Assembly: GCA_023259055.1 (NCBI GenBank)
Contig: JAHFQZ010000002.1
Location: forward strand, 124,001 to 188,000
DNA: 64,000 nucleotides
From: Nitrosomonadales bacterium
GTDB lineage: Bacteria; Pseudomonadota; Gammaproteobacteria; Burkholderiales; Gallionellaceae
Direction: 5' to 3'
Shown here: piece after piece, positions 4,252 to 26,379 of the stretch
Layout of the letters: every line of letters starts with the position of its first letter
Position numbering within the stretch: position 1 is the first letter of the stretch
Position numbers and translations under genes: made by a program
The notes under the pieces: model-generated
Told to the model about the DNA's origin: nothing
Seen by the model: the letters and a program-made list of their open reading frames with translations, nothing else
The model's database searches: none

Positions 4252-5496
4252 TTATTCACCATGATGGATGTTATAACAAGCCGCCAACAGCACAGCCACA
4301 GTAAAGCTGTAAAAAGCGGTGGACATGGTCAGATTCAGAACTTCCACCGTCAATCCAAACACAATGAACCCGCTCACAAAAGTGATGCCGAGCAACCCTG
4401 CCCTTTTAACTTGCCCGGATGTCGACTTTGTCGCCTGCCAGAACAATCTGAACGGTACGAAATAGATGGCAAGTATGGCGAGCAGCCCGAACACACCCAT
4501 CCCGGTGGCCTTTGACAAGATATCGCTATGCACTTCACCGCGCCCCAACTCGGCGGCAGCGGGTGTTATTTTACCGGCTTCCATCATCGGTTTCATCTCC
4601 AGCGCAAAACCCTCAGGACCCACGCCAAAAATCGGATGGCGCGAAAACACATCCACTGCTGCTTTATATAGCTGCCAGCGTATCCCGATGGAAGTGTCGC
4701 GGTTTCCTTGGCTGAAGGACGCGACATCACTTGCCAACTCATTCACGCGCCGATGGAAGGTGGCGCTTCCGGTATAGGCAATCGTGATAGCCAGTATTGC
4801 AGCCATCAAGCTTGCCGCGACCGTCTTCAAGGAAATCCTGATCATCCTGAAGTAAAAGAAGATGGCAATAAACACTGGGATCGCCAGCCAACCGCCCCTG
4901 GAACCAGATGCAAGTGAGGCCGCCAACCCGGCAGCAAAACCCAATATTTTCAGGATACGCAATAGCAACCGGTCGCGACCGAACCAATCGATGCTGAATA
5001 ACGACAACACCCCAAGAATCAATTCGAAATTACCGAAGCGGATCAAATCCAGCGTGCCTATCCCCGATCTACCACCCAGATCCTTTGCCAGCAACAACCC
5101 TGTGATGGCCGCAACAGGGAAGGCGAATTGCATCACTGTGAATATGTTCAGACGGAGGCGGTGCAATAGCAGAAACACCGGGATCGCCAGCCAGTAGCGG
5201 GACGCCGCATCATGGGGATGCCCGCCATAATTGTGATGGTAGCTCTGGCTAATGAAAATTGCGGCTGACATTGCGAACATGGCCACAAAATAAGCCTTCC
5301 ATTCATATTGCCATTTCACTGTGTTTAGGCCTGCTGGCCGCGCTACCCACACCGCAAAAGTGAGCAGCAGCATCAACAGGAATGCCCCGTTCATGCCGCC
5401 TTTCACTGTAAGCATCAGCGTCGGATAAATCAGCAGCAACAAAGCCGCCGCTTTCTCAACGAAATATAAATAGCGTGAGTACACCGTTCCCATCAC
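4252..5496 (-). CDS. O-antigen ligase / Wzy_C family membrane protein
   Basis: A 414-residue, strongly hydrophobic protein with about a dozen membrane segments. It carries hallmarks of the O-antigen ligase (WaaL)/Wzy_C superfamily: SGSRGGWLAIP near residue 200, and the large periplasmic loop with GIRWQLYKAAVDVFSRHPIF then GVGPEGF near 270-300, followed by a conserved histidine (GEVHSD). Such proteins either transfer finished O-antigen from undecaprenyl diphosphate to lipid A-core, or act as polymerase. Because two other polymerase-like proteins occur at 15.9-19.2 kb and core-type glycosyltransferases are nearby, the ligase role is favoured. This is inference from context. A decayed GT4 fragment lies upstream. 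Confidence 0.8.
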   Translation of the reverse strand: MMGTVYSRYLYFVEKAAALLLLIYPTLMLTVKGGMNGAFLLMLLLTFAVWVARPAGLNTVKWQYEWKAYFVAMFAMSAAIFISQSYHHNYGGHPHDAASRYWLAIPVFLLLHRLRLNIFTVMQFAFPVAAITGLLLAKDLGGRSGIGTLDLIRFGNFELILGVLSLFSIDWFGRDRLLLRILKILGFAAGLAASLASGSRGGWLAIPVFIAIFFYFRMIRISLKTVAASLMAAILAITIAYTGSATFHRRVNELASDVASFSQGNRDTSIGIRWQLYKAAVDVFSRHPIFGVGPEGFALEMKPMMEAGKITPAAAELGRGEVHSDILSKATGMGVFGLLAILAIYFVPFRLFWQATKSTSGQVKRAGLLGITFVSGFIVFGLTVEVLNLTMSTAFYSFTVAVLLAACYNIHHGE

Positions 5497-10230: not shown

Positions 10231-10601
10231 TCAGCAACGGTCTGCAGGCCTTGTTGCATGGTATATGGAGGTGTCCAGTTGAGTTCGCGGCGAATTTTAC
10301 CACTATCAACTTGCAATGAGCACAACAGACACTCGACCTGATCTGCCTTGCCGGTCAAACGGCCCTCCAGTTTCAACAAAAATGGAGGACAGGGAAACAA
10401 ACGCGCCGGATGGCCCATCGCTGCGCCTAACTGGCGCAACAAATCAGGTGTTGAAACGTCCTCGCCATCACTCACCAGATATGTCTGTCCGGCAGCGGAG
10501 GGATGCGTCGCGCAAACAATCAACGCATCTACCAGGTTTTCGACAAAGCTATTTGCCCCCGTTACCAATATTCGATCTTTATTCAAACTTGCTTGGACCA
10601 A
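10224..10601 (-). pseudogene. Internally deleted NAD-dependent sugar epimerase
   Basis: The 125-residue frame begins like an SDR epimerase (RILVTGANSFV, the nucleotide-binding loop). It then passes directly into the C-terminal third of the same family: ENLVDALIVCATHPSAAG, LVSDGEDVSTPDLLRQLG and SLQVDSGKIRRELNWTPPYT. About 190 residues with the catalytic Tyr-x3-Lys are missing, while the frame stays open. The family partner of WbpL-type transferases is a 4-epimerase/reductase of about 320 residues, so this is most simply a deletion between two similar short sequences (GANGFV and SFVENLVD). The product would be inactive. It overlaps both neighbours, so its translation may still matter for coupling. 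Confidence 0.78.
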
Positions 10602-11713
10602 ACCGTGCGATTCACATAATCGACGTAACTCAGCACGACTCGAAGCAGTTGCTTGGATACCGCACCCGCTTCGTAATCCTGGACTGGCTGCATCACGCGC
10701 TTAGTCTTGTCGTGTTGGGCGATGATGACTCGTACCGCATCGAGTACCCGTTCTTTTTTCAGCCCGCTCATGATAAGCGTCCCTACATCCATGCCTTCCG
10801 GGCGTTCATGCGCATTACGAATGGTGATCGCAGGCAAGTTGAGCAGTGATCCTTCTTCGGTGATCGTGCCGCTGTCGGATACGACACACAGTGCCTCCAT
10901 CTGCAATTTGATGTAATCGCAGAATCCGAAAGGTTTGAGGAATTGTATATGCGGATTGAGCTTACCCAACTCCATCGTATCCAAGCGCTTCCGAGTGCGC
11001 GGATGCGTGGAGACAATCACCGGACAGTTGTAAGTTTCTGCCAACGCATTGAGCGTTGCGACCATGTTAGACATATTTTCAGGGCTATCGATATTTTCTT
11101 CGCGGTGCGCGCTCACAATGAAGAACTTGTTTGCCGTCAGTCCCATGCGTTGCAGCACATCCGATTGCTGGATCTTCGGCATGTAATGATCCAGCACTTC
11201 ACGCATGTGCGAGCCGGTCTTGATAATGGTCTCGGGGGGAATGCCTTCGGCGATCAGGTAACGACGGGCATGCTCAGTCAGCACCAGATTGATGTCACTC
11301 AAGTGATCCAACACCTTGCGATTCAGCTCTTCCGGCACGCGTTGATCGAAGCAGCGGTTACCAGCCTCCATGTGGAACACCGGGATCTTACGGCGCTTGG
11401 CCGCGATGACCGCCAGACAAGAGTTCGTGTCGCCGTACAGCATGACCGCATCGGGCTTTTCTTTTTCCATGACCGCATCGGATTTTTCTATTACCCGCGC
11501 GATGGTTTGCGCGGCGTTTTCGCCCACCGCCTCAAGGAAGTAATCAGGCTTGCGGATACCCAGATCCTCGAAGAACAATTGGTTCAATTCGTAATCGTAG
11601 TTCTGGCCGGTGTGCACCAGAATATGTTTAGTGTGCTGATCGAACTCGGCGATCACCCGGCTCATTTTGATCAATTCGGGACGCGTCCCGACGATGGTCA
11701 TGACTTTAAGCAT
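10583..11713 (-). CDS. UDP-N-acetylglucosamine 2-epimerase family (WbjD/FnlC-like)
   Basis: A 376-residue cytoplasmic enzyme of the WecB/WbjD family. MTIVGTRPELIKMSRVI opens the fold, MLYGDTNSCLAVIAAKRRKI and HMEAGNRCFDQRVPEE are the substrate-binding core, VSAHREENID is the conserved SAHR segment and SDSGTITEEGSLLNLPAI closes the active site. Placed directly after a WbjB-like dehydratase and an RmlD-like reductase, it most likely does the last 2-epimerisation step to UDP-L-FucNAc or UDP-L-QuiNAc rather than making UDP-ManNAc. This is inferred from the neighbours. Overlaps wbjB-like by 8 bases. Confidence 0.87.
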   Translation of the reverse strand: MLKVMTIVGTRPELIKMSRVIAEFDQHTKHILVHTGQNYDYELNQLFFEDLGIRKPDYFLEAVGENAAQTIARVIEKSDAVMEKEKPDAVMLYGDTNSCLAVIAAKRRKIPVFHMEAGNRCFDQRVPEELNRKVLDHLSDINLVLTEHARRYLIAEGIPPETIIKTGSHMREVLDHYMPKIQQSDVLQRMGLTANKFFIVSAHREENIDSPENMSNMVATLNALAETYNCPVIVSTHPRTRKRLDTMELGKLNPHIQFLKPFGFCDYIKLQMEALCVVSDSGTITEEGSLLNLPAITIRNAHERPEGMDVGTLIMSGLKKERVLDAVRVIIAQHDKTKRVMQPVQDYEAGAVSKQLLRVVLSYVDYVNRTVWSKQV

Positions 11714-12716
11714 TTAGTTCTTCCTTGATGTAATCCAGTTTCGACAACAGTTTTTTGACTTGCTCGACATTCAGGCGCTCGGTGTTGTGCGAGGTGTAAT
11801 CTTCCTGATGCGATATCTTTTCTTCGCCCTCGCTGAAGTACTGCGCGTAATTGAGATCGCGGTTATCCGCCGGGATACGGTAATAGCCGCCCATATCTTG
11901 GGCTTTGGCCATTTCCTCGCGCGAGATCAACGACTCATATAGCTTCTCGCCGTGGCGGGTACCGATCACGCGGACTGGATTGCTCCTGGAGAACATCTCT
12001 TTCAGCGCTTGTGCCAGATCGGCAACGGTCGAAGCAGGTGCCTTCTGCACGAAGATATCGCCCTGCTTGCCATGCTGGAACGCATACAACACCAGGTCTA
12101 CCGAGTCCTCCAATGACATCAGGAAGCGCGTCATGTTCGGATCAGTGACGGTGAGTGGCTTACCTTCTTTAAGTTGCGACACAAACAAAGGTATAACCGA
12201 GCCACGCGAAGCCATCACGTTGCCATAGCGAGTTGCACACAATATGGTCTCTCCCTCACGCTGCATGCGTGCCTTGGCAACCATCAATTTTTCTGCCATC
12301 GCCTTGGAAATGCCCATCGCATTGATCGGATATACCGCTTTATCCGTGCTAAGTACCACCACACGTTTGACGCCATTGGCAGTCGCGGCATTCATCACAT
12401 TCTCGGTACCCATGACATTGGTTCGCACCGCCTCCATCGGATAGAACTCACACGAGGGAACCTGCTTCAATGCGGCCGCATGAAAAACGTAATCCACACC
12501 CTTCATCGCCTGATGGATGCTGTCGTAATCGCGGACGTCGCCGATGTAAAACTTCAGTTTCGGATCGTTCAACGCGATGCGCATCTCTTCCTGCTTCTTT
12601 TCATCGCGGCTGAAAATGCGGATCTCGCGCACTTCCGTCGACAGGAAGCGATTAAGCACAGTGTTCCCGAAAGAACCCGTGCCTCCGGTGATCATCAATA
12701 CTTTGCCTTTGAACAT
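11706..12716 (-). CDS. UDP-GlcNAc 4,6-dehydratase/5-epimerase (WbjB/FnlA/CapE-like)
   Basis: A 336-residue soluble SDR. VLMITGGTGSFGNTVLNRF is the NAD(P) loop, HAAALKQVPSCEFYPMEA the substrate region, and STDKAVYPINAMGISKAM the catalytic stretch with Met in place of Tyr. TRYGNVMASRGSVIPLF matches the WbjB/FnlA/CapE group, which forms the 4-keto-6-deoxy-L-sugar from UDP-GlcNAc in L-FucNAc and L-QuiNAc pathways. Full length for the family. It follows the RmlD-like reductase by 14 bases and precedes the 2-epimerase with an 8-base overlap, so the three pathway enzymes are adjacent. Confidence 0.9.
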   Translation of the reverse strand: MFKGKVLMITGGTGSFGNTVLNRFLSTEVREIRIFSRDEKKQEEMRIALNDPKLKFYIGDVRDYDSIHQAMKGVDYVFHAAALKQVPSCEFYPMEAVRTNVMGTENVMNAATANGVKRVVVLSTDKAVYPINAMGISKAMAEKLMVAKARMQREGETILCATRYGNVMASRGSVIPLFVSQLKEGKPLTVTDPNMTRFLMSLEDSVDLVLYAFQHGKQGDIFVQKAPASTVADLAQALKEMFSRSNPVRVIGTRHGEKLYESLISREEMAKAQDMGGYYRIPADNRDLNYAQYFSEGEEKISHQEDYTSHNTERLNVEQVKKLLSKLDYIKEELNA

Positions 12717-12730
12717 AATTCGACCCAGAT

Positions 12731-13585
12731 TTATTTATATGTGTGCATCAACTTGATCAATTCGGGCCACTCTGGAGCGACGTAGCCCGTTGCCAACTGA
12801 AAACGCCTTGCATCAAGCGAGCGGTCTATCACCAACTTGTCGTCCGGCACGATGTCGATACTCTTGCCGTACACGTCGGCGATCAATTTCAACAAATCAA
12901 ACTTGTTAATCGGTTTCGCGGCGACGTGGTATAGGCCGGACAGTTCCGTGTGCGGTATCACCACATCACGCACGACTTGTGCAAAAACCACTGTCGGCAA
13001 CCCGGAAAAAACGGCGCGAGTATAACCTTTGCACCGCCCCTGTTGCGACAGGAACCAGTCCAGCAGCCCATATTTACTTTGCAACTCATGGCCGATGGTC
13101 GAAGTGCGTAGAGTGATGGCGTGCGGGTAACCCACCTCACCCAATGCCTTGGATTTTCCATACACGTCTCGCGCATCGGCAAAGTCATCCTCGGTATAAC
13201 TGCCCTTCTCGCCTGAGAAGACGCAGTCCGTGCTGACATGGATCAGGCGCGAACCGACGAGTTTGCACAGCCCCGCAAGGCGGTGCGGCATCAACGTGTT
13301 GATCGGGATCGAGACCAGCGGGTCTTCGGCTTCCGGCTTGTGCTTGGTCAAGCCAGCGCAATTGACGACCACATCTGGCCGTATCTGATCCAGAACCCTT
13401 ACCAGAGCATCCGGATGCTCGACATCAATCTCCGCTATCAGCCTCTCGCCGATGGATGCGGGGAAAAAGCGCTTCACGCTTTCATCCCGAACGCTGCCGT
13501 AAACATGCCAGTCTTTTTTCTCACTCAGAACGCGCAGCACCGTACTGCCTATCATGCCGCTCGCGCCGATCACTAATACTTTCAC
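12731..13585 (-). CDS. RmlD-type SDR reductase (WbvR-like)
   Basis: A 284-residue protein of the dTDP-4-dehydrorhamnose reductase (RmlD) family. MKVLVIGASGMIGSTVLRV is the cofactor loop, VVNCAGLTKHKPEAEDP and HVSTDCVFSGEKGSYTE are RmlD-type, and VYGKSKALGEV holds the catalytic Tyr-x3-Lys. Between a WbjB-like dehydratase and a WbuB-like transferase, it is expected to reduce the 4-keto-L-sugar. CapF/WbjC-type reductases of the FucNAc route are longer (about 370 residues, with a C-terminal cupin), and no cupin is present here. The RmlD-like form resembles WbvR of L-QuiNAc pathways, so L-QuiNAc is the better guess. Overlaps the upstream gene by four bases. Confidence 0.8.
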   Translation of the reverse strand: MKVLVIGASGMIGSTVLRVLSEKKDWHVYGSVRDESVKRFFPASIGERLIAEIDVEHPDALVRVLDQIRPDVVVNCAGLTKHKPEAEDPLVSIPINTLMPHRLAGLCKLVGSRLIHVSTDCVFSGEKGSYTEDDFADARDVYGKSKALGEVGYPHAITLRTSTIGHELQSKYGLLDWFLSQQGRCKGYTRAVFSGLPTVVFAQVVRDVVIPHTELSGLYHVAAKPINKFDLLKLIADVYGKSIDIVPDDKLVIDRSLDARRFQLATGYVAPEWPELIKLMHTYK

Positions 13586-14815: not shown

Positions 14816-15880
14816 CTATTCTGCTCTCTCTAAAATATGCTTTAGGAAACCCGCAGCGTCTTGCAAGGGTAACAACGGCTCTTCTATCCCGAGGAAACGT
14901 TTCACCGCTCTAGCTATGGAAACCGCCGATTCCGGATCGAACGTCTGTTCCGGATCTAATACATCACGCACATAATCCAGCTCCGGTGCCAGCACTGGCA
15001 ACCCAGCTTGTCGAGCCTCGATCAACGGCAAGCCGAATGACTCAAAAGTGGACGGATAGATCAACGCGCCTACCCGATCATAAAGCTGCTTGACTTGATC
15101 ATGCGGCACACTTCCAAAATTCTCCACATTCAATCGGTACTGCCCAATCTTTTGACCCATCCAGGAACACAGCTCCGCAAAATGCTCCCTATCCAATGTC
15201 AGCTTCAACTTGGGAAACAGACCTTCCTTTGCCAACAGACACCAAGCCTCGATCAGCTGCCGATGGTTCTTATGCGGCTCGCCGGATGCAACATATAAGA
15301 ACTCAGATCCTTTTTCTTTTTGTATTTCCAGCGGCCATGTTCTTCGCACGTACTCTTCATGATTCGCCATGAACGGCAACACACGCACCGGAATTTTTCC
15401 TTTTGACCGCGCTTCCAGCAGCCTTTTCATCGAGGGCGTTTGCACAACGAACTCGTCAACATTCGTCATTCTGCCGGATAGCCAAATGCGTTCAACCCAA
15501 AGCCTCAGTCTGGTTTTAAGTGGAAAACAGTTTAATTTTACATCATCGACCAAATACCGGTTCTGAAGAAAAAGCAGCACATGCCCGCGCAACCTGAACA
15601 ATGGCGGCAAATTCCCAAAACACAGGATGATATCTTGCGGCTGAGCATTCTGCGCAAGCCACCACTCAGCCTGCAGCCGTTGTGGTATCGATGGCTTCAC
15701 AAACCTGACTGTCAGGTTTTCTGGCAACCCCCACTGCGGTGTCATACGACTATCCAACTGCACCAGCGCTTTTACGTTTCCGGGAACTGCTGCCAGCAAA
15801 GCGGTAAGCAAGGATTTCCCTCCCCCTTGATGCACATTAGTGGCATGCAAGAACAACCTTGAAGGAATTTCTCCGCTCAA
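14816..15880 (-). CDS. GT4-type glycosyltransferase
   Basis: A 354-residue protein with the GT-B C-terminal signature: FLYVASGEPHKNHRQLIEAW near residue 192 and STFESFGLPLIEARQAGLPV near 276, where E-x7-E supplies the two acidic residues. The N-terminal half (HATNVHQGGGKSLLTALLA) is the acceptor domain, with a glycine-rich loop. It probably adds one sugar to the O-unit. The start overlaps the stop of the polymerase-like gene by four bases. Specific substrate not recognisable. Confidence 0.82.
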   Translation of the reverse strand: MSGEIPSRLFLHATNVHQGGGKSLLTALLAAVPGNVKALVQLDSRMTPQWGLPENLTVRFVKPSIPQRLQAEWWLAQNAQPQDIILCFGNLPPLFRLRGHVLLFLQNRYLVDDVKLNCFPLKTRLRLWVERIWLSGRMTNVDEFVVQTPSMKRLLEARSKGKIPVRVLPFMANHEEYVRRTWPLEIQKEKGSEFLYVASGEPHKNHRQLIEAWCLLAKEGLFPKLKLTLDREHFAELCSWMGQKIGQYRLNVENFGSVPHDQVKQLYDRVGALIYPSTFESFGLPLIEARQAGLPVLAPELDYVRDVLDPEQTFDPESAVSIARAVKRFLGIEEPLLPLQDAAGFLKHILERAE

Positions 15881-17709
15881 ACCGCACCCCTACCATCACG
15901 ATATGACCTAAGCTTTCGAATCACAGCATAAACCCTATCAGACTGCACGACAGACACCAGCAGTACAAAACCCAAGATCATGCTGTAGAACGGTATATCT
16001 TGCCGGGGAGCAATACCAAATTGCGCGATCGTATTGGCCAGAGTCAATCCGAATAATGAGCAGAGCAAAGGATTGGACGTCAAGGCAAATACCCATTGCT
16101 CACTTAATTGCAGCAGAAAGGCAAACGTCGCCATACCGATCAGTACTACCCAAAGTGAACCGCTGAAATAGAGGAAGGCGGCTGCGCCCGGTAAACTGGC
16201 AAATTGCCAATTGCTGGCATCGGTCCAACGATAGTGCGAATTACTTATTTCCTGAAACTTTGTTGTTTTACCGATTTCCCGTTTCTCTTTTGCGGCATCG
16301 AATAGCAACGCACTGCTTTTCTCAGGGTATGCACTCACTGCCATCACACCCTCCAACCCGATCCAGCGATCAACGACCAGCGCCGATATTCGTGGCAAGA
16401 ACCCTGTGCCGATTTGGAAATACAGCTCGCTGAGTAATTTGTCTTTATTCTCTAACAAGCCATCGCGGCTTGAATCCGGACTTGCGGCACTTTTGGCTTT
16501 GCCTACTTTATCGCCCGTAGCCACTGCATCACTTTTAACTCCGTTTTTCATTGAGCCGTTATCCAATTGCGCTTTCTCGGCCAGCAATTCACGCAGATGC
16601 CCCTCCTGATGCTCCCCTTGCGCAATCAGTTTATTCACATGCGCTATGCCACCCTCGAGCACTTCTAGCCGTGCCGCCTTCAAGCCTTTTTCCAATTGCG
16701 CTTTCTCAGCCAGCAATTCACGGAGGTGCCCGTCTTGCGGTTCACCCTGCGCAATCAGTATCCTCACGCGAGCTATTCCACCCTCAAGCACTTCCAGGCG
16801 GGTCAGCCGTTTCTGCTCTTCGGTGGTGAAGCCGCCTGCGTGGGGGTACATATAAGCACGAATAGTAGTAACGCCTGAAATAGAGATCACCATCAAACCT
16901 AAGAATGCCAGAATCAGCGCCACAACTTTTGTTCTAGATAACCCAACCAGCCCTTGCCTGTTCTCAAACAGCGAGAACAACTGTGGAAGCGTGTGAAAAA
17001 TGTATATGCCTCGACTTAACAGGGAGGCCGTAGACGCGATCGCCTCGATGAGCAGCGTATAGATAGATGCTGAAATGCTCTTTTTTAACGACACCTCCCA
17101 CCAGAGCAGTACTGTTATCAGCAGCGCGCTACCTATGCTCACTTGCACTGCAATTAATGCATTAAGCGGCCAAGGTAATACAGTTCGCGGGACCAAACCA
17201 CCTTGCTGTATCCCCAATATCGTGTTCACTACAGCAATACCCAGCACCAGCGTCAAAGCAAATGGCCATATCCAATTCCGGTTAGCCAGATACCACATGG
17301 GCACTTTCGCTTCATCTATACCAACGACTCTGGAATATTGCTTCCCCATGAGAGTAAATATTAATTTACCCAACATCACACCGGCACTGGCCATGATCGC
17401 CACCCATAAGACGGCATCCCATGCGTCTGCCGAAGCATCAAAGGCACCTATCGGTTCCACATAGGGATACTTAAGAATCAAATGTGCAGTTATCTTTACC
17501 CAAAAACCCAACCATAAGGCTACTGTTAAAAACAGATAGCCGTAGTGCGCACGCTTTCCTAATCCAGTAAGTAGCGTAAACCAGAACATTACCGAGAACA
17601 GCAGGTAAATCAGCTTTGATCCCGGATAATTATTCAGCCCTGCGACGAGCAATGCAGCCACAAATATGGCTGCTGCGAAAAGGAAAAACCATTTGATGAT
17701 TTCTTTCAC
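15877..17709 (-). CDS. Polymerase-like polytopic membrane protein with a repeat-bearing inserted loop
   Basis: A 610-residue hydrophobic protein with N- and C-terminal clusters of membrane segments, homologous throughout to its neighbour at 17714-19240. Shared blocks include LPWPLNALIAVQV (about 178), LLSRGIYIFHTLPQLF (about 230), VVDRWIGLEGVMAVSAYPEK, NSHYRWTDASNWQF and FGIAPRQ near the end. It resembles oligosaccharide repeat-unit polymerases (Wzy) in architecture and context, but I recognise no defining motif. A stretch at about 294-425 is absent from the neighbour. It holds two tandem 43-residue units (304-346, 347-389) rich in Leu, Glu and Ala, probably helical, followed by a polar Ser/Lys/Gly linker. 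Function as polymerase is inferred. Confidence 0.75.
   Translation of the reverse strand: MKEIIKWFFLFAAAIFVAALLVAGLNNYPGSKLIYLLFSVMFWFTLLTGLGKRAHYGYLFLTVALWLGFWVKITAHLILKYPYVEPIGAFDASADAWDAVLWVAIMASAGVMLGKLIFTLMGKQYSRVVGIDEAKVPMWYLANRNWIWPFALTLVLGIAVVNTILGIQQGGLVPRTVLPWPLNALIAVQVSIGSALLITVLLWWEVSLKKSISASIYTLLIEAIASTASLLSRGIYIFHTLPQLFSLFENRQGLVGLSRTKVVALILAFLGLMVISISGVTTIRAYMYPHAGGFTTEEQKRLTRLEVLEGGIARVRILIAQGEPQDGHLRELLAEKAQLEKGLKAARLEVLEGGIAHVNKLIAQGEHQEGHLRELLAEKAQLDNGSMKNGVKSDAVATGDKVGKAKSAASPDSSRDGLLENKDKLLSELYFQIGTGFLPRISALVVDRWIGLEGVMAVSAYPEKSSALLFDAAKEKREIGKTTKFQEISNSHYRWTDASNWQFASLPGAAAFLYFSGSLWVVLIGMATFAFLLQLSEQWVFALTSNPLLCSLFGLTLANTIAQFGIAPRQDIPFYSMILGFVLLVSVVQSDRVYAVIRKLRSYRDGRGAV
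16543..16800 (-). repeat. Two tandem 129-bp coding repeats
   Basis: Within the polymerase-like gene a 129-bp unit occurs twice head to tail (16672-16800 and 16543-16671 in coding phase). Each copy encodes RLEVLEGGIA, then a variable stretch, then LIAQGE, then GHLRELLAEKAQL. The DNA copies are still very alike (for example TCCAATTGCGCTTTCTC at 16562 and 16691), so duplication is fairly recent. Being a multiple of three, copy number can change without breaking the frame. Confidence 0.85.
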
Positions 17710-17713
17710 AATA

Positions 17714-19240
17714 CTATTTATTGCGGTAAATCACATTGTTTGCGATCCATCCTTGGCGAAACCAATATGCTTGCGCAAGAGATACTACAACTATGATTGC
17801 AAAGTTCATTGCAATTTGCGCCAATAATTGCCTAGGCGTAACGCCGATTTGCGCAACCATATTCGCCATCCAAACCCCTGATGCTGCACAAAAAAATGGG
17901 TTAACAGATATGAACTGAACCAGGCGCTCACTGGCTGTCACGCTCAAGGCGAGCATCAGTGTGCCAACGAAGACTATCCAGAATGAATTGCTGAGATAAA
18001 GGAACCCACCAACGCCAGGAATAGTATTGAATTGATATTTGTTCGCATCCATTCGACTGTAATGTGAATTTGAAATGAATTGGTATTTCGTAACGTGACC
18101 TATGGCTGGTTTCTCTACCAACAACTCCTCAAAGAGACTCACACTTCTATTGGGGTAGCCAACAGCGACCATAATGCCTTCCACACCGACCCATCGATCC
18201 ACAACAAGATTCATTAGTTGCCCTCCACCCTCAACAACCGTACCAAACTGTGTGTTGTAAATCGTTTCTGCATTGATCGCATTCAACCTTACGTCATACA
18301 GCGAGTTTCTGAAAACATTAACCGCAGTACCGACAACAACGAACCCAACCATTGCCACAACAGAAAAGAAGATCAAGGATCGGGTAGATAAAGACTTCCG
18401 AAATTTGAGCTTGTTTTCCCAAGCGGCCCAAATAATTGGTAACACATGCCAAAGGTAAAGTCCTCGGCTAATTGTTGTCAGTCCGCCGACCGCCGCCTCA
18501 AACAGTGCAACCAATATTCCCGATGAAAGATTCCTATTCCGCAAGAAATCCCAATAAAGAAGTGCTGCTACCAAAAACGATAACCCGCTGTATAAGAACC
18601 AGCTGGCAACCGCATTAATCGGCCATGGAAATATCTTGCGTGCTACCAAACCCGATTGCACAAATCCATATTGGACGTTGGCTAGGTTTAATACTGCAAT
18701 TGCAAGAACCAACAATATCCACAAATACTTTTGCGAAATCTTCGGCTCATAGTCATTAACTAAATTTGGTTGGCCAGCACTTATACCCGCATTTTGATTT
18801 TCTCTGATCCAACGCATTGAAATGATCCACGCTGAACTTATCCCCAGACAGACGAGCGTAGCAACGCTAATCAATTCATCATATTCTTGAGGCGTAAAAT
18901 CAAACCCCCCGGTTGCTTCGGTATATGAGCGAGATAGAATTATATTTACAGTTAATTTCAGCCATAGCCCCAGCCAGAGAAAGACCGTCAGAATGGACGC
19001 CCCGTAACCCAGCCGGTTGCGTAAACCCAGCCACAACATGAGAGCTGCTGATGCAGAAAAAACCGTATACACAGAAAGGGAGCCTGGGCGGTGGCTGCAG
19101 GCAAGCAAAAAAAGTATGGCGTAAAAATAAATACCCAAGAGAAATACAATTCTCTTCAGACTAATTTTATGCTCAAACATAAAATTAGTTGTGTCAACCG
19201 ACAAACCTTCACCGGGTTTTTCCCCGCTTTTCTTAGGCAA
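17714..19240 (-). CDS. Polymerase-like polytopic membrane protein (paralogue without repeats)
   Basis: A 508-residue membrane protein with about ten or more hydrophobic segments, paralogous to the protein at 15877-17709. It shares FPWPINAVASWFLYSG, TTISRGLYLWHVLPII, VVDRWVGVEGIMVAVGYPNR, SNSHYSRMDANKYQF and VAQIGVTPRQLL. It lacks the long central insert of its neighbour. I place the start at a TTG (19240) because AGGAGAG lies eight bases before it and the codon overlaps the stop of the upstream GT10 gene (ATTGCCTAA). A longer frame from 19297 has no such site. Likely a Wzy-like repeat-unit polymerase or related glycan membrane protein; the assignment rests on architecture and context. Confidence 0.75.
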   Translation of the reverse strand: MPKKSGEKPGEGLSVDTTNFMFEHKISLKRIVFLLGIYFYAILFLLACSHRPGSLSVYTVFSASAALMLWLGLRNRLGYGASILTVFLWLGLWLKLTVNIILSRSYTEATGGFDFTPQEYDELISVATLVCLGISSAWIISMRWIRENQNAGISAGQPNLVNDYEPKISQKYLWILLVLAIAVLNLANVQYGFVQSGLVARKIFPWPINAVASWFLYSGLSFLVAALLYWDFLRNRNLSSGILVALFEAAVGGLTTISRGLYLWHVLPIIWAAWENKLKFRKSLSTRSLIFFSVVAMVGFVVVGTAVNVFRNSLYDVRLNAINAETIYNTQFGTVVEGGGQLMNLVVDRWVGVEGIMVAVGYPNRSVSLFEELLVEKPAIGHVTKYQFISNSHYSRMDANKYQFNTIPGVGGFLYLSNSFWIVFVGTLMLALSVTASERLVQFISVNPFFCAASGVWMANMVAQIGVTPRQLLAQIAMNFAIIVVVSLAQAYWFRQGWIANNVIYRNK

Positions 19241-20303
19241 TTTGTATTCTCTCCTGTGAGTCTTTTGGAGCATCGACAATAACAAGCATCGAATCAAAAT
19301 ATCTTAAAAATTCTTTGCTATTCAGATAGGCACGACCCGCCTCTCGAATTGTGTTGATTTGGCTATCAGACATACTGCTTATTTCGCGCCACATCTCTTC
19401 CCATGAGGCAAATTTGCGGCAGTCGATATAGGCTTCAGCTGGTATCAGCGAGTTGATGTCCGGTGCGCCAAGGTAGAGTGGGATTGTACCTGCGTAGAGG
19501 CAATCAAACAGTTTCTCAGTCACGTAGCCGGTCATTTGCATGTTCTCAAAACACAAGCTGAACCGATAGCGGCTCAACGTCTCATATTTAGAAACACATG
19601 ATCCATGATAGATAGACAACAACATGCCGCGATTCAGCCAATAGGGCAGCCACATGGAACGGCGCGACAACCACTTATCCCATCCGACACCATACAGATC
19701 TATTGCGTCTAACTTTGCCAGCGCGGCCATCGCCTCGATGCGTTTGCTGTAGAGTTCTCCCGCTCGACTTCTGGGTTTGTGGTTACCGTTTATCACCACG
19801 ATTCGATTAAGACGTTCGCCTTTTTCCCAGTGTTCTTCAAGCACACCCTTGAACGGCTGAGGCCAGAATAATTGCCTTAGCTTGGATCGATCTACGCCTT
19901 GCAGTGAATAGCCATCGCCTATGATGTTGTGCACGTACACCCGGTCAAAAGCTGCAGTCAGTTCGGGTAAGGCGCGGTAAGTCTCTGGACAGACGATGGG
20001 CGGCTCGAATAACAAGAAGCCCTTCAGTGATGTCCCTTGTTTCTTTAACCGCTCGAAATTATCCAGTATACCGAACGAGTAATAGTCGCCATGCGCAGTT
20101 CCATCTGCTCGCTGAACAAGAAGTTCGGCGGTATTGGTCTGGACACCCTGCTCGGTCAGCGTCGCGGCAAGGCGGTGATAGGGCAGCAAGCAACCGTCCC
20201 TGTTTAGCTTGTCATCCTTGCCATCGAACATTTTGTTCTGATAGTAATGGTTGGAGGGTGGGTCGATGAACACCGCGCCCTTTGTTTTCGACAATTCACT
20301 CAT
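19233..20303 (-). CDS. GT10 alpha-1,3-fucosyltransferase-like enzyme
   Basis: A 356-residue protein with the GT10 C-terminal donor site: YRFSLCFENMQMTGYVTEKL followed by FDCLYAGTIPLYLGAPDI and the EAYIDCRKF strand. These lie at about residues 243-305. GT10 enzymes transfer L-fucose from GDP-fucose. Here the operon encodes Gmd, a fucose-synthase/ColC-like enzyme and ColD, so the donor could be GDP-L-fucose or GDP-L-colitose; that choice is inference. The N-terminal region (about 1-170) is less conserved and forms the acceptor domain. Overlaps the upstream GT2 by four bases. Confidence 0.85.
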   Translation of the reverse strand: MSELSKTKGAVFIDPPSNHYYQNKMFDGKDDKLNRDGCLLPYHRLAATLTEQGVQTNTAELLVQRADGTAHGDYYSFGILDNFERLKKQGTSLKGFLLFEPPIVCPETYRALPELTAAFDRVYVHNIIGDGYSLQGVDRSKLRQLFWPQPFKGVLEEHWEKGERLNRIVVINGNHKPRSRAGELYSKRIEAMAALAKLDAIDLYGVGWDKWLSRRSMWLPYWLNRGMLLSIYHGSCVSKYETLSRYRFSLCFENMQMTGYVTEKLFDCLYAGTIPLYLGAPDINSLIPAEAYIDCRKFASWEEMWREISSMSDSQINTIREAGRAYLNSKEFLRYFDSMLVIVDAPKDSQERIQIA

Positions 20304-24774: not shown

Positions 24775-26379
24775 TTAGAAATTCACGCCAAAGAACGCTT
24801 CGATCTTCTCGACCACGAAACTCAGCATCGCCTCAGTCAGGCCGGGATACACACCGATCCACAGGGTGTCATTCATGATCTTGTCGGTATTGTTGAGCTC
24901 ACCGCTGATACGATAGGTGCGCCCTTCAAAATACGGCTGGCGCGTCAGGTTACCCGCGAACAGCAGGCGCGTGCCGATCTTGTATTGATCCAGATATTTC
25001 AACAGTTCGACCCGGTCGATGCCGGCCGATTCGCGCACGGTGATTGGGAACCCAAACCAGGATGGCTCGCTGCCTGCAGTGGCTTCCGGTAGGATCAGGA
25101 ATTCTTCACAAGATTTCAACCGTTCTTTGAGGAAGGCAAAATTGTGTTTGCGCGCTTCGATGAAGCCGGGCAGACGATCCATCTGTGCCAGCGCACAAGC
25201 CGCTTGCATATCGGTGATCTTGAGGTTGTAACCTAGGTGCGAATAGGTGTACTTGTGGTCATAGCCAAACGGCAACGAGCCCAGCTGCTGGCCGAAGCGT
25301 TTACCGCAGGTATTGTCACAGCCAGGCCCACAGTAGCAATCGCGTCCCCAATCGCGAAACGATTCGATGATGCTGCGTAGATCACGGTCTTTGGTGAAGA
25401 TCATGCCGCCCTCACCCATGGTGATGTGATGTGCGGGATAGAAGCTGCAGGTGGCGATGTGTCCGAAGGTGCCTACGTGCTGGCCCTTATAGCGCGAGCC
25501 GAGCGCATCGCAGCAGTCTTCGATGACCCACAGATTGTGATTCTTCGCCACGGCCATCACCGCATCCAGATCGAACGGGTTGCCCAGGGTATGCGCCACC
25601 ATAATGGCTTTCGTCTTATGACTGATAGCCGCTTCGATCTTATTCGGGTCGATGTTGTAGGTAGGGATGTCCACATCCACAAATACCGGAACCATGCCAT
25701 TCTGCAACATGGGATTCACGGTTGTCGGGAATCCCGCCGCAACTGTAATGACTTCATCACCCGGTTTAAGGGCGCGATCACCCAGCTTATGTGAAGTCAG
25801 TGCAGTGAATGCCAGCAGGTTCGCAGAAGAACCCGAGGTGGTGGTCAACGCATACGGCACACCGACAAATTCGGCAAAGCGCTTCTCGAATGCATCGTTG
25901 AAACGCCCCGTGGTAAGCCAGGCATCCAGGGAGGCTTCGACCATGTTTTTAAGTTCGGATGCGCCGATGACCTTGCCTGACGGGGGAATGACGCTGGTGC
26001 CTGCGTTAAATGGTTTGTCACGGTACTTGAGCGCAGCAAGATTCGGAATGTCCAATGTCACTAATCTGCGCAGCACCTGCTCGTAACCTTTGTCGCTCAG
26101 CCGTGCGACCGGTTTTTCTAATCGGCTGATATGCAGATTGAAGGTCTTGTCTACTCGCACATGACTTTGGTGTTTGAGCGGATCGCCACCAAAATCGGAT
26201 GTTCCCAATGCGAAACCCTGCGCTTCATCCACAGGTGTTTTGGTAATGAAGGCAATACGCACATCATCGTTTTCATCCTTGCAGGACAACGCCAGCACGG
26301 GTCTTTTCTTTTTATTGCTTAGATCGCTGAACGGGAAGTGCGCACTGTAGATTGTGCCGGGGGTAATTTCAAAGGTCAT
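24775..26379 (-). CDS. rfbH: PemK/MazF-like toxin domain fused to RfbH (CDP-4-keto-6-deoxyglucose 3-dehydrase)
   Basis: A 534-residue protein with two parts. Residues about 6-110 resemble PemK/MazF endoribonuclease toxins ([19 protein letters not shown], then PVLALS, then IAFITKT). From about 122 on ([19 protein letters not shown]) it is RfbH/E1, the PMP- and [2Fe-2S]-dependent dehydrase that removes the 3-OH of CDP-4-keto-6-deoxyglucose. The PLP lysine is replaced by His318 ([14 protein letters not shown]). Cys290, 348, 350 and 358 fit the E1 spacing C-x57-C-x-C-x7-C. The family is normally about 437 residues and lacks the first part. No stop separates the domains. GTG at 26061 or TTG at 26055 could restart a near-normal RfbH. 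Overlaps the antitoxin gene by 11 bases. Whether the toxin domain is active is unknown. Confidence 0.88.

Follow-up and report, generated by a model that had tools for sequence, protein, structure and literature searches.

A polysaccharide gene cluster within the 64,000-nucleotide stretch of bacterial DNA analysed here (the window) encodes a Wzy-like membrane protein in which one very large loop, predicted to be periplasmic, carries a length-variable helical repeat. The protein, 610 aa in length (15877..17709, minus strand), was delineated from its ORF, a structure model and an alignment of 21 homologues, and the whole variable loop, delimited by the loop lengths of those homologues, spans residues 285-447 (163 residues; 16369..16857, minus strand), with the invariant arginines R284 and R448 flanking it. 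Comparisons among related genomes support a variable number of units across species, giving a natural series of 0, 1, 2, 2 plus a remnant, and 5 copies of one helical module inside a polymerase-like protein. These natural variants would permit a direct test of the idea that such a module acts as a spacer or a ruler, and so bear on how Wzy-type polymerases set chain length.

Self-comparison and unit alignment place unit 1 at residues 304-346 (16672..16800, minus strand) and unit 2 at residues 347-389 (16543..16671, minus strand), with a period of 129 bp, head to tail, in frame and without indels (TRF score 342), precisely the span 16543-16800 and the two 43-residue copies described in the initial annotation. 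The repeat is beyond chance, because the self-alignment of the protein at an offset of 43 scores 155, a value reached by 0/200 shuffles (shuffle mean 26.2). The same annotation had called the copies young and nearly identical at the DNA level, and here the data point the other way: only 98/129 bases are identical over the full unit, the best block reaches 96/118 (81.4%), and dS and dN between the units are 0.87 and 0.17 (Nei-Gojobori). In that block 18/22 mismatches fall at third codon positions, and the protein sequence of the unit is constrained, held while synonymous sites drift. Core dS between orthologues of different taxa is larger still (1.38 and 1.93), and orthologous units (W1-L1, W2-L2, W1-K1, W2-K2) match at 83 to 89/129 bases. 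Since identity within the gene exceeds that between orthologues, the window pair would have been duplicated after the taxa split or been partly homogenised, and on either account its divergence marks the duplication as old. Ten units from four proteins align gap-free, with 10/43 columns invariant (R1, L2, I9, A10, I16, G19, L26, L29, E32, K33). A copy-by-copy orthology of units across species was dropped, since support values in the unit trees were low (29-81 for DNA, 23-92 for protein).

The proposal that the unit can vary in number without frameshift stands at the level of species, the level covered by genome collections that hold one genome per species. The window protein has two units. The orthologue from a Polaromonas MAG (L005:4995-6974; genome G1258) has two units and a degenerate remnant, a half-unit at residues 414-433 whose score was reached by 0/1000 shuffles; a possible second half-unit, seen by eye only, lies near residue 389 and begins before the tested stretch. 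A Polaromonas paralogue (L005:2976-4763) carries a single unit, 13 to 17/43 residues identical to the other units, which scores above all 2000 pattern-preserving shuffles and has the 10 invariant positions. The orthologue in genome G107, of another genus in the same family (L027:7374-10031), has five units, three of them within 192-bp units, of which neighbours match at 171, 190 and 118/192 bases. It is here that a recent event fits: because two 192-bp units match at 190/192 bases (units K3 and K4, dS 0.03, a near-identity that misassembly might also produce), amplification appears recent in G107 and old in the window. The model of the 885-aa G107 protein (pLDDT 79.0, pTM 0.63) shows a row of helices, as expected. 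All remaining homologues, the window paralogue included, have no unit, and the loop lengths of the 21 homologues, 26 to 415 residues overall, divide into 26 to 82 without a unit and 117, 163, 211 and 415 with one. A profile of the unit hits 2/399 genomes of the order, solely at this gene.

The structure model of the 610-aa protein, built from a 20-sequence alignment (mean pLDDT 83.1, pTM 0.77), reads as 12 TM helices, of which TM9 (259-287) and TM10 (519-544) stand on either side of the insert. Helices in the insert run over residues 297-320, 326-363 and 369-388, the middle one passing from unit 1 into unit 2, and each unit is predicted to form a helical hairpin; residues 390-418, just after the repeats, are modelled with low confidence. 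The initial annotation had entertained a loop facing the periplasm, and this orientation of the TM9-TM10 loop is predicted from the model together with a charge bias, since Lys+Arg density, computed with model-derived helices, is higher on the predicted inner than the outer side in 21/21 homologues (pooled, with the insert left out, 404/2582 versus 104/1683). Against this reading counts the insert's own Lys+Arg density (359/3331), which exceeds the 104/1683 of the remaining outer loops. In the window protein a plain hydropathy count gives 11 segments, the short TM8 (234-249) being overlooked, and taken alone it would place the loop inside. Residues invariant among the 21 homologues include S232, R233, R284, R448, W449 and E453.

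What kind of protein bears this loop? Topology, loop arginines and context make it Wzy-like. We do not assign it to the Wzy family, since no Wzy profile is matched, the RX10G/RX15G motif is not conserved and a comparison with the folds of solved relatives (WaaL, SEDS, GT-C) gave no confident match. This motif is described in the two large periplasmic loops of the P. aeruginosa and S. flexneri Wzy. In the present family it is not conserved: it occurs sporadically among the 7 members listed, and the stretch 11 to 16 residues beyond R233, R284 and R448 has no conserved Gly. No Wzy profile was matched in Pfam by the 21 members (E up to 0.1), in NCBIfam by 5 proteins or in PHROGs by 20 proteins, and no match naming a polymerase was found among PDB sequences. 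Foldseek against the PDB found nothing with E up to 0.001, and the best VIA-align Z, 7.9, is a value usual for common helical arrangements; the fold search of viral models likewise gave none at E up to 0.001, and among the 50 matches listed for each of these searches there is no Wzy or WaaL entry. As domain names, PF16326 (E 0.061) and PF19955 (E 0.37) were rejected, being below their cut-offs, as was Sensor_TM1 in the paralogue (E 0.0079), and 11 Pfam and 4 PHROG families, each matched by one member (best E 1.6e-05 and 9e-05), were taken as coincidental. The likeness to Wzy O-antigen polymerases of the Wzx/Wzy-dependent pathway lies in the conserved arginines at periplasmic loops, in the place within a polysaccharide gene cluster and in the helix count, the 12 predicted here being within the 10-14 TM helices given in the available text of a Wzy review (PMC12004945). 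The window protein differs in having one very large loop rather than two, and in the tandem helical repeats within it. No case of a Wzy with tandem repeats in a periplasmic loop was found in a search of mostly open-access papers, and the titles or abstract openings listed yielded no Wzy or O-antigen polymerase with an intragenic repeat or tandem duplication. We infer polymerase activity for the 610-aa protein, and the linkage to fnlABC, together with the invariant R233, R284, R448, W449 and E453, provides handles on a polymerase-like family that is unnamed in the profile libraries searched.

The earlier description of the gene as polymerase-like is supported, and the repeat gene sits in a polysaccharide cluster with an initiating transferase and glycosyltransferases. 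Three genes in this cluster match profiles of FnlC-, FnlA- and FnlB-type enzymes (10583..13585, minus strand), and we take the corresponding sugar to be UDP-L-FucNAc; the FnlA match is below its NCBIfam cut-off (572.8 versus 730 bits) and the 2-epimerase match above (255.4 versus 210.15). Matches to FnlA, FnlB and FnlC occur together beside the polymerase-like gene in 11/18 loci, a count that includes FnlA over 63 residues only in L031 and FnlA at 43% in L052 and L061. One locus beyond these, L053, has FnlA and FnlB matches, and the other six are without FnlB and FnlC, with the gene near a contig end in L029, L055 and L056 and with FnlA matches that are weak and overlap a PglF-like hit in L050 and L032. 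The genes flanking the repeat gene stand in the same order in the window, L005 and L027. A Wzy_C-domain protein in the same region (4252-5496; match at 4471-4941), probably an O-antigen ligase, is the main rival candidate for the function of polymerase; the genome has a second Wzy_C protein, a 680-aa frame on contig C8.

The loop accommodates other repeats as well. Internal repeats beyond all shuffles (0/200 each; G107 0/60) are present in 5/21 loops and are of three unrelated kinds: the 43-residue unit, present in the three orthologues; in G437 (L034/L056), an EKQAA-type repeat of 5 residues; and in G724 (L053), a duplication of 19 residues at offset 48. Four further homologues were borderline (9 to 13/200 shuffles) and were left out of the count; among control segments of the same proteins, 2/105 pass a weaker test of 100 shuffles, each by one point.

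Why build a stack of helices into such a loop? The reading we favour, to which we give about an even chance, is that of a Wzy-like polymerase whose periplasmic loop provides a spacer or docking arm of variable length. The polymerase would make a surface polysaccharide, in a cluster that includes fnlABC-like genes of the UDP-L-FucNAc type; the TM9-TM10 loop between R284 and R448 bears in-frame 43-residue units, predicted to be helical hairpins, and the stack would lengthen by tandem duplication over evolutionary time. Rising above the membrane, the stack would most likely act as this spacer or arm and fix how far from the active site a partner or the growing glycan lies. The repeats may, however, be tolerated without function: the loop could be a permissive site at which repeats from recombination or slippage are tolerated and their number has no functional effect, an account that is clearly less probable, though one to be taken seriously. 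It would suit the range of loop lengths among the 21 homologues, the three unrelated repeat kinds and the absence of repeats from most family members, but the protein sequence of the unit is kept while synonymous sites change, and the diverged single unit of the Polaromonas paralogue beats its 2000 shuffles with the 10 invariant positions retained. A third account, in which the window duplication arose by recent slippage or through faulty assembly, would fit two tandem, in-frame copies; we regard it as extremely improbable, as the copies differ at 31/129 bases, a pair of units occupies the same place in the Polaromonas orthologue, and the divergence and dS of the window units contradict it.

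The initial annotation had suggested that changes in loop length might alter glycan chain-length control. A more specific idea, which we consider unlikely, is that the repeat stack acts as a ruler for glycan chain length within the protein and takes over part of the work of a Wzz co-polymerase. Two of the three genomes with the 43-residue unit, G107 (five units) and Polaromonas G1258 (two plus a remnant), are without a PF02706 or PF13807 match, and this would suit a ruler, but in a draft genome the lack of an HMM match carries little weight. G437 is without a match to either domain as well. The genome of the window has one match to each domain, both in a 757-aa frame on contig C2; these are its sole matches, and neither domain was found in the 610-aa repeat protein. 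Across 17 carrier genomes, either domain occurs in 2/5 with a loop repeat (G000, the genome of the window, and G724, the repeat group also comprising G107, G1258 and G437) versus 9/12 without, some of these matches being below cut-off; the difference is small, and the counts lean towards a ruler and are too small to show one, so that with too few genomes the comparison was dropped as ruler evidence. The periplasmic parts of the Wzz and Wzc co-polymerases are helical. In the available text of PMC10030265 such parts are associated with Wzy, which recalls the present arrangement, but they belong to separate proteins around Wzy, at 8:1, whereas the window helices lie inside the polymerase-like protein itself. 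WbdD of E. coli O9a speaks for a ruler: according to the portion of PMC5082667 available, a coiled coil sets O-antigen length there, and like the window protein WbdD has a helical segment, variable in length, that is connected with polysaccharide assembly. WbdD, however, terminates chains as a kinase/methyltransferase, its coiled coil is parallel and trimeric, and it belongs to another assembly pathway (PMC5082667). It would likewise be surprising, in our estimate, if the stack were an internal evolvable ruler, with the hairpins determining how far the enzyme reaches and in-frame gain or loss of units retuning polysaccharide length in one mutational step without Wzz.

The protein family is rare in the genome samples searched. 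Carriers number 1/61 among relatives, 7/399 in the order, 3/158 in the family, 2/34 in the genus of G107, 6/369 in the class and 4/398 in the phylum; the samples overlap, and the genome of the window is included in all except the genus-of-G107 sample. Two scans of viral contigs found no relatives, and a plasmid search returned one Rhizobium plasmid match at 31.6%, and no match with another family member as query. In L032 (G237) the homologue is broken, its matches being scattered across a number of short frames, and one of these frames is interrupted by a TAG.

The paralogue adjacent to the repeat gene (527 aa; 17714..19297, minus strand; 31% identity) has no repeat unit, and its 37 residues between the two conserved arginines, compared with 163 in the repeat protein, confirm that the neighbour lacks the insert. 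Diverged polymerase-like paralogues lie side by side elsewhere too, with two at window 15877-19297, two at L027:7374-11484 and three in Polaromonas at L005:1489-6974; one polymerase per cluster is usual. In the Polaromonas cluster a perfect run of 18.7 TTC repeats (L005:4770-4825) separates the paralogue with one unit from the orthologue with two, and a change in the length of this run could alter expression of the downstream gene; no promoter-like site was found on the coding strand after the run in this locus. At L056 (G437), the locus of the EKQAA-type homologue, adjoining GT10, GT2 and flippase-like genes match those of the window at 59, 53 and 71%, which suggests that parts of the cluster have been exchanged. 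Further along the window, at 24775-26379, a 534-aa frame appears by eye to fuse a PemK/MazF-type N-terminal domain to a sugar aminotransferase.
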